Part shown: piece by piece, positions 60,806 to 61,379 of the stretch | Layout of the letters: each line of letters begins with the position of its first letter | Numbering within the stretch: position 1 is the stretch's first letter | Assembly: GCF_004402215.1 (NCBI RefSeq) | Contig: NZ_SOEZ01000069.1 | Span: 1-64,000 of the forward strand | Length of the DNA stretch: 64,000 nt | DNA from: Cryobacterium tagatosivorans | GTDB lineage: Bacteria > Actinomycetota > Actinomycetes > Actinomycetales > Microbacteriaceae | Direction: 5' to 3' | The notes under the pieces: model-generated | What the model was told of the DNA's origin: nothing | What the model saw: only the letters and a program-made list of their open reading frames with translations | Databases searched by the model: none | Made by a program: the position numbers and the translations under genes

Positions 60806-60883
60806 CGGGGCGAGTTGCGGGCGATAATTCCCAGCTGTGCGCGCACGCGGTGCCCCGGGACGGATGCGTGTGCCCACCCCAGG

Positions 60884-61070
60884 GCGCCTCCGGTCGCGAG
60901 AACAGGATGGATTGCGCTCGCGTGTCTGAGCACAGGAGAAAGTGGGCCGCTCCTGCCATCTGTTCCGGTTTTGGCCGCGCGCCGACCGCGCGGCTGGCGA
61001 TAACTCCGAGCTGCGGCTGGTCGCGTTGCTCCAGGAAGGATGCGTGCGGTCACAGCTGGGAGTTATCGCC
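60884..61070. repeat. Long direct repeat, copy 1
   Basis: 187 bp starting GCGCCTCCGGTCGCGAGAAC and ending GGGAGTTATCGCC. Its distal 70 bp (from about 61000) are themselves an inverted repeat: GGCGATAACTCC ... GGGAGTTATCGCC. Copy 2 at 61171 has the same layout. Confidence 0.8.
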
Positions 61071-61170
61071 CGAGTAGCCGGCTGCGGATGTCGCGCGGCT
61101 GGCTCCGCCCACGGCATCCGTCGCCGAGTCGCCGGCGGGCGCTGCGGGCGTCGCGAGCGCCTGCCTGGAT

Positions 61171-61379
61171 GCGCCACCGGTCGCGAGAACAGGATGGATT
61201 GCGCTCGCGTGTTTGAGCACAGGAGAAAGTGGGCCGCTATCGCCATCCGTTCCGGTATTGGCCGCGCGCCGACCGCAGTGCGACCGCGCGCCGACCGCGG
61301 GACGTGCGATTACAACGAGCTGTGGCTGCACGCGGCGCTCCCGGGGGGATGCATGCGGCCACAGCTGGGAGTTATCGCC
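61171..61379. repeat. Long direct repeat, copy 2
   Basis: 209 bp starting GCGCCACCGGTCGCGAGAAC and ending GGGAGTTATCGCC. It differs from copy 1 by scattered bases and a 22-bp internal duplication (GCGCGCCGACCGC repeated at 61263 and 61286). Confidence 0.8.

Follow-up and report, generated by a model that had tools for sequence, protein, structure and literature searches.

In the portions of PMC3116915 drawn on here, each REPIN group adjoins a RAYT gene of its own and co-evolution of the two is proposed. REPs, as treated in the sections of PMC3733652 used here, are found chiefly between convergent or unidirectional genes near 3' ends; the GTAG and CGTC classes are 20-40 bp long, the CGTC REPs are without a dedicated transposase, and how such families spread is described as open. 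The word 'Actinobacteria' is absent from the main text of that paper. Our searches of the open-access literature returned nothing on REPs or RAYT in Actinobacteria or on palindromic intergenic repeats in Microbacteriaceae, and no paper on the present elements was found by title. Among the papers listed as matches MTES_1575 was not mentioned, and DUF559 was not linked to repeats in titles or the beginnings of abstracts.

The elements described here resemble the REPIN/RAYT system (PMC3116915, as far as drawn on) in being dispersed, extragenic palindromic doublets that come in word types, each type beside its own trans-acting gene, but this neighbour is a Vsr-like nuclease (12/34 genomes). They differ further in that the units measure 75 bp (type-1) and 95 bp (type-2), outside the 20-40 bp of a GTAG- or CGTC-tagged unit, and that the type-2 unit carries its motif three- or fourfold. 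A RAYT was rejected as partner, since the Y1 transposase domain (Y1_Tnp, PF01797) was absent from the genome itself and from 57/57 genomes of the genus, the same search being positive in 5/14 control genomes. Membership in REP/REPIN therefore fails on transposase and size, and the likeness in mode of life stands. With the GTAG/CGTC REPs, as the sections of PMC3733652 used here present them, the elements share a 3'-end, convergent-gap placement, and the CGTC REPs likewise are without a dedicated transposase.

Two further comparisons concern the partner protein. By its predicted domain it falls in the same nuclease domain family as the Vsr-like/DUF559 endonucleases (3r3p; Caulobacter VsrA, PMC12907096, in part), none of which is tied to dispersed palindromes in the partial descriptions compared, and it has an extra N-terminal domain. 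The N-terminus is weakly similar to the AbiEi antitoxins of type IV toxin-antitoxin systems, which bind inverted repeats (PMC7319586, parts used here); unlike AbiEi, the C-terminal part is a predicted nuclease domain.

Two elements in one intergenic gap

The window, that is the whole 64,000-nt stretch of Cryobacterium tagatosivorans DNA analysed, is part of contig C49 of a genome (here G000) of 3.78 Mb in 81 contigs. The repeat locus lies in the gap between two convergent genes and contains a unit of about 190 bp twice (Table 1). An earlier note on this DNA, made from the letters alone, had claimed two direct repeats, and these are real: 60884-60989 and 61171-61276 are 93% identical over 106 nt, 60975-61070 and 61284-61379 are 82% identical over 96 nt, and in a BLAST search of the own genome with copy 1 the second copy came up at E=4.5e-49, which chance cannot account for. 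From one unit half to the other the distance between the copies changes from 287 to 309 because of a 22-bp insertion in copy 2, which bears out the internal duplication that had been noted. The distal hairpins reported there were recovered by DNA folding as well, and the type-2 copies of the window fold weakly as DNA (z=-2.14 and -1.42). For the third partial copy proposed at 60820 the inverted repeat is sound and the match to the type-1 model is weak. It had also been stated that no gene explains the string, and the six ORFs crossing the region were indeed without Pfam match (60942-61574 at E<=0.001, the five others at E<=0.1).

Table 1. Features of the repeat locus, in positions of the window. 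R1 and R3 are models of the type-2 element, R2 of the type-1 element; the type-2 copies of the window are seeds of R1 and absent from the seeds of R3.
Feature	Position	Strand	Evidence
mycothiol-S-transferase/DinB_2 family gene (left neighbour, convergent)	60272-60805	+	PF04978 E=2.3e-42, PF12867
degenerate type-1 element (well-kept arm 60820-60848 alone)	60820-60888	-	31-nt inverted repeat, 90%; R2 20.3 bits, E 0.044 (weak); one full type-1 in the orthologous G071 gap (L318)
type-2 element copy A (M1, M2 direct; M3' inverted)	60890-60984	+	R1 84.8 bits (seed); R3 61.8 bits, E 1.1e-14
type-1 element copy A, 75-bp hairpin	60996-61070	-	R2 90.2 bits (seed); DNA fold z=-5.32
100-bp linker between units	61071-61170		outside both long repeat families
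type-2 element copy B	61177-61271	+	R1 82.6 bits (seed); R3 59.3 bits, E 5.5e-14
22-bp duplication inside copy 2	61262-61299		TRF period 11, 3.5 copies; copy offset 287 vs 309
type-1 element copy B, 75-bp hairpin	61305-61379	-	R2 84.8 bits (seed); DNA fold z=-4.35
pyridine nucleotide-disulphide oxidoreductase gene (right neighbour, convergent)	61457-62512	-	PF07992 E=1.8e-23

What the earlier note had missed is that each unit consists of two separate elements, both recurring elsewhere, in the order type-2 (+) then type-1 (-) in both copies. Its description of a modular extragenic element was thus apt, given that there are two independent intergenic palindrome families with internal modules, and the repeat is neither unique to this site nor unconserved, both families recurring in the genome and in relatives. 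The orthologous gap of G071 (L318) contains a single type-1 element and no type-2, therefore the type-2 element and the doubling are extra in the genome of the window, which carries a local duplication of the type-2/type-1 pair.

Searches with Rfam gave six matches in 60500-61600, none reaching the gathering cut-off, and two in 12 further loci, both under the cut-off; no hairpin followed by a T run (intrinsic terminator) was found in 60700-61600. In relatives, the majority of BLAST matches to the window region looked unrelated; L016 in G001 was one that proved of use. Directly after type-1 copy B lies a short CAG/CAC-rich tandem array (61381-61446) that is absent from the G071 orthologue, and a 15-bp repeat in 4.9 copies (62411-62483) occupies the 5' part of the oxidoreductase frame and encodes a short repeated peptide. 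The octamer CGGATGCC has 40 sites in the window where shuffles gave 7.0 expected (maximum 15 in 100 shuffles), and GGATGC, whose letters are related to it, is also found in several type-1 loops.

Frame, spread and structure of the type-2 element

The type-2 element is a 95-bp palindrome with the motif CGAA-nnn-GGA three times, two direct (M1 and M2) 30 bp apart and one inverted (M3'); in G000 and its relatives the frame reads CGAA-nnn-GGAyGA twice direct, then inverted. Length was exactly 95 bp in 47/75 copies, the M1-M2 spacing (GGA to GGA) was 30 in 57 of the 63 copies with both anchors, and the M2-M3' spacing was 29 in 58/64. Short forms of about 65 bp exist, and in the orthologous G003/G067 pair L293/L271 (65 and 93 bp) the shorter member is missing a run of some 30 columns of the alignment. 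In the genera g79, g47 and g71 the inner motif has an inverted partner of its own in many copies, which gives four positions of the word, spread over an outer stem and an inner hairpin; strong DNA hairpins were obtained for copies from other genera (L320, z=-9.50; L337, z=-7.50).

Model R1 (nine seeds, among which the word classes GGA and AGC are absent) had matches in 28/57 genomes of the genus at E<=1, many of them single and weak. With both strands counted, most were in six genomes (G003 35, G067 32, G001 21, G021 20, G000 18, G020 9), the other 51/57 having 0-5. The covariance model R3 (47 seeds) recognised the element in 69/398 genomes and 31/85 genera of the family at E<=0.01, a threshold at which chance alone should give about four genomes, were the E-values, which are rough, exact; 10 candidates were scored per genome, so that per-genome counts are lower bounds. 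Of two phage and plasmid collections one gave a single 26-bp match at E 0.6 and the other none, and the exact type-2 arm pattern had no occurrence in viral contigs.

Among the 75 copies in the loci examined only the pair in the window (287 bp) lies under 760 bp apart, and close pairs recur elsewhere, two in G021 (150 and 173 bp) and one in G197 (122 bp, L391). More commonly the element is dispersed singly, and the doubling in the window is a local duplication; the earlier suggestion that the element multiplies in tandem thus holds at this site and not as a general mode. At L408 (G143:C73:175900-177193) three type-2 copies lie within 1.3 kb round short genes outside the nuclease family described below.

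Pairing of M1 with M3' was evaluated in an alignment of 47 rows (A7). Paired cells made up 86.7% versus 78.1 in shuffled alignments and two-sided cells numbered 70 versus 31.5, neither being reached in 500 shuffles. Three of the five covariation measures exceeded all 500 shuffles, and no excess was found for pairs with two-sided change (8 versus 7.6) or further pair types (23 versus 20.4). These pair counts are biased to the outer stem, which is contained in the models (R1 and R3) that gathered the alignments; the M1-M2 identity is in no structure. Alignment columns 14 and 44 agreed in 98% (56% expected). No RNA strand preference was given by M1:M3' (38 G-U versus 29 A-C cells), and the M2:M3' cells (37 G-U versus 13 A-C) would favour the modelled strand, though M2 need not pair there.

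Placement and turnover

The type-2 copies were assigned to gap types with our own codon-usage gene caller, one copy without two neighbours being dropped and orthologues and one identical pair being counted separately; base rates were computed on the intergenic sequence of the window together with four contigs of G003/G067. The copies sit mostly by the 3' ends of genes. Convergent gaps held 34/74 copies, an enrichment over their 29% of intergenic bases (p=0.002), tandem gaps 32/74 and divergent gaps 8/74, a depletion relative to 27% of intergenic bases (p=0.001). In tandem gaps the element was nearer the stop codon in 27/32 cases and, as a weak tendency, followed the gene direction in 20/32.

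Presence varies between species at orthologous sites. With matches under 20 bits excluded, contig C61 of G003 has eight type-2 copies, six of them with both flanks placed on G067, where three are shared and three sites are without the element and hold short DNA that is unrelated by sequence. On contig C43 of G003 both flanks could be placed for three copies, two with an element in G067 and one (19621) with none and a longer gap; conversely, the element at C85:109446 of G067 has no counterpart in G003, again with a longer gap. The flanks of the empty sites are too diverged for a target duplication or clean ends to be recognised. Two 4,090-bp stretches of G003 (L288 and L289, on C58 and C69) are 100% identical, which reflects either a recent duplication or an assembly matter.

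The type-1 element

The type-1 element is a 75-bp hairpin and constitutes a second palindrome family without known partner. Its model R2, built on four seeds, had 13 matches at E<=1 (both strands counted) in G000, 14 in G021 and 7 in G071, and 0-3 in each of the other 54/57 genomes. A copy of exactly 75 bp lies between an L-lactate permease and a lactate dehydrogenase gene (C69:51489-51563) and has an orthologue in G071, and at C69:36235/36394 a type-1 and a type-2 element share one intergenic gap, oriented towards each other as they are in the window. The G021 copies keep the frame while the letters before CCAGCTG vary, and pairs about 100 bp apart occur there (L315, L316). Within about 17 kb of that genome (C8:3111-20257, the same two loci) there are seven type-1 matches of weak to moderate score (22-30 bits), some of them adjacent pairs, and no partner gene was recognised. 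Apart from GntR regulators and the lactate genes, which are orthologues, no family recurred among the 24 neighbour proteins of type-1 copies, and MTES_1575 was not found among the families listed for them (25 of 42).

A predicted nuclease gene beside the type-2 element

At three loci (L371 in G303, L394 in G128 and L298 in G003) two type-2 copies flank a gene at a distance of about 1 kb, and the three genes are of one family, MTES_1575/DUF559; the pairs at L307 and L370 flank unrelated genes. A profile of the three founding proteins found 10 distinct homologues, the founders included, among 988 distinct genes, and all were beside an element (10/260 neighbour genes versus 0/728 others, p=1.4e-6; the DNA sampled mostly surrounds elements, and the 728 include genes from some 400 kb of contig sequence). 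Two more nuclease genes came from forty further loci, one in G142 and one in G104; each adjoins an element and each matches MTES_1575. In total the type-2 element adjoins a Vsr-like gene in 12/34 genomes examined from six genera (g1, g79, g71, g85, g51, g47); the 12 cases are not independent, since one locus is common to four g1 genomes and three are of genus g71. The family was counted at type-2 loci rather than genome-wide, therefore distant paralogues are possible. In 22/34 genomes no nuclease gene was beside the copies examined, including the copy-rich G245, G256 and G021 as well as G143, where three clustered copies surround another gene. In the genome of the window the gene lies at C35:13213-14085 (L241:2189-3061) with a type-2 copy adjoining.

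At 7/12 loci (L241, L262, L298, L371, L394, L391, L399) an element with the orientation of the gene is found 90-192 bp ahead of its start, and at 7/12 (L298, L371, L394, L407, L325, L412, L432) one is found no more than 20 bp from the stop codon, frequently overlapping that codon and in opposite orientation in 5/7. In G001 the gene is truncated, with an element inside the called frame (L311), and this genome has many type-2 copies despite the truncation at that locus.

The partner protein is predicted to comprise a Vsr-like PD-(D/E)XK endonuclease domain and a weakly AbiEi-like N-terminus. DUF559 was above the cut-off in 9/12 proteins and MTES_1575 in 4/12, the truncated G001 protein having neither, and profile matches in PDB were to 3hrl 'Endonuclease-Like Protein' (E 0.00037) and 3r3p 'Mobile intron protein' (E 0.0053). 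Seven residues (E186, D213, E223, D225, W229, H230 and D239 in G000 numbering) are invariant in 8/8 aligned proteins and may be catalytic. NCBIfam gave no name for 5/5 proteins. The AbiEi models stayed under the Pfam cut-off in all but one of the 12 proteins (AbiEi_4 in L325), several having no match, and PADLOC gave weak AbiEi matches in 3/5. Proteins with a Vsr-like fold can serve as homing endonucleases. When the G003 and G067 proteins are compared, identity is 88% over the N-terminal 60 residues, 81% in the middle and 90% in the C-terminal part; faster evolution of a word-reading domain was thus not seen.

A word that is shared within elements and differs between genomes

The three variable letters of the motif (the word) agree inside the element. 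In G003 the M1-M2 agreement was 0.89 versus 0.54 in shuffles (18 elements, 0/2000), in G067 it was borderline (50/2000), and in G001 (686/2000) and G000 (113/2000) it was not significant; 13/75 elements without all three anchors were dropped from the test in these genomes. When the offset was chosen anew for each shuffle, agreement in genus g79 was 0.88 versus 0.71 (21 elements, 0/1000), modest in g71 (7/1000) and not significant in g47 (163/1000), and with a fixed offset 0, 9 and 308 of 2000 shuffles, respectively, reached it. The window copies carry ACA in M1 and M2 and ACC in M3'.

The word differs between genomes even at orthologous sites. One orthologous locus reads GCA three times in G067, GGA three times in G003 and ACC three times in G000. 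Differing words were found in the orthologous pairs L266/L285, L267/L295 and L261/L297 and, less complete, L273/L284 and L263/L290; the word was kept in L259/L279, L260/L283 and L277/L294. Outside the motif the five G003/G067 pairs with differing words are 0.61-0.73 identical, compared with a mean of 0.54 for unrelated pairs, and 4 to 39 of 189 unrelated pairs reach such identity, so that either a word change in situ or replacement of the element would fit.

The element beside the nuclease gene carries the commonest word of the genome in 3/3 genomes of the same genus (g1) with an intact gene: ACC in G000 (34), GCA in G067 (31) and GGA in G003 (25), the gene-side element being included in these counts. 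In G001 the word beside the truncated gene is GCA and the commonest is ACA, giving no match. A link between the nuclease and the element is thus suggested by genetic proximity and by this word match.

Interpretation

We consider a REPIN/RAYT-like system with an unrelated nuclease to be the best reading, at about an even chance of being right, in which the type-2 element would be mobilised by the nuclease. The N-terminal domain may read the word of the element and the nuclease domain may nick the extruded hairpin, upon which repair or replication would copy the element to new intergenic sites and keep the word uniform. The palindrome is then probably transcribed, at the sites it occupies, as a hairpin at the 3' end of genes that costs little.

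The placement could also be understood if the elements were REP-like 3'-end hairpins, maintained because they end transcription in both directions or protect mRNA, with the nuclease gene a passenger at some sites. The convergent enrichment, the divergent depletion and the position near the stop codon in tandem gaps all fit this reading, as do the strong hairpins in other genera and the like placement reported for REPs (PMC3733652, in part); it leaves unexplained why the word is common to the direct copy M2 and why it matches on the gene side, and the window locus (60700-61600) has no hairpin with a T run, so we regard it as unlikely, though still to be reckoned with. If instead the N-terminal domain acted as a repressor, with the 5' element serving as its operator and the remaining copies as decoys or regulon sites, the elements ahead of the start in the gene's orientation at 7/12 loci would be accounted for, and AbiEi antitoxins do autoregulate through promoter inverted repeats (PMC7319586, parts used here). 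The AbiEi likeness is weak, however, the other copies avoid divergent (promoter) gaps, and as many loci have the element by the stop codon, which makes operators quite improbable.

Were the element a MITE, mobilised by an ordinary DDE transposase or some other unseen one, it would be short, have inverted ends and differ in presence between species at orthologous sites, as the type-2 element does. We hold this to be very unlikely, given that no transposase was among the families listed (25 of 154 and 25 of 173) for 200 neighbour proteins and that no target duplication was seen, in flanks too diverged to read one. For the window alone, local duplication of neutral DNA would agree with the single type-1 element of the G071 orthologue, yet as a full account it is contradicted by the recurrence of both parts at many sites and in other genomes, and its probability is close to negligible.

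Under the nuclease-based reading the type-2 elements might represent a new class of dispersing DNA, in which nested palindromes carrying a three- or fourfold address word would be spread by a Vsr-like nuclease that has its own reader, word and reader co-evolving within one family; this wider claim we put forward tentatively, at somewhat less than an even chance. In the partial accounts used here, the REPs known so far depend on Y1 (HUH) transposases for their dispersal, and in the present case a different enzyme class is found beside the repeats. Since the word in addition differs by genome at orthologous sites, co-evolution of repeat and reader is directly testable. If the reading is true, repeats would here have found a way to disperse that does not depend on HUH/Y1 transposases, and it would suggest a role for one branch of DUF559/MTES_1575, DUF559 being named 'Protein of unknown function' in Pfam.
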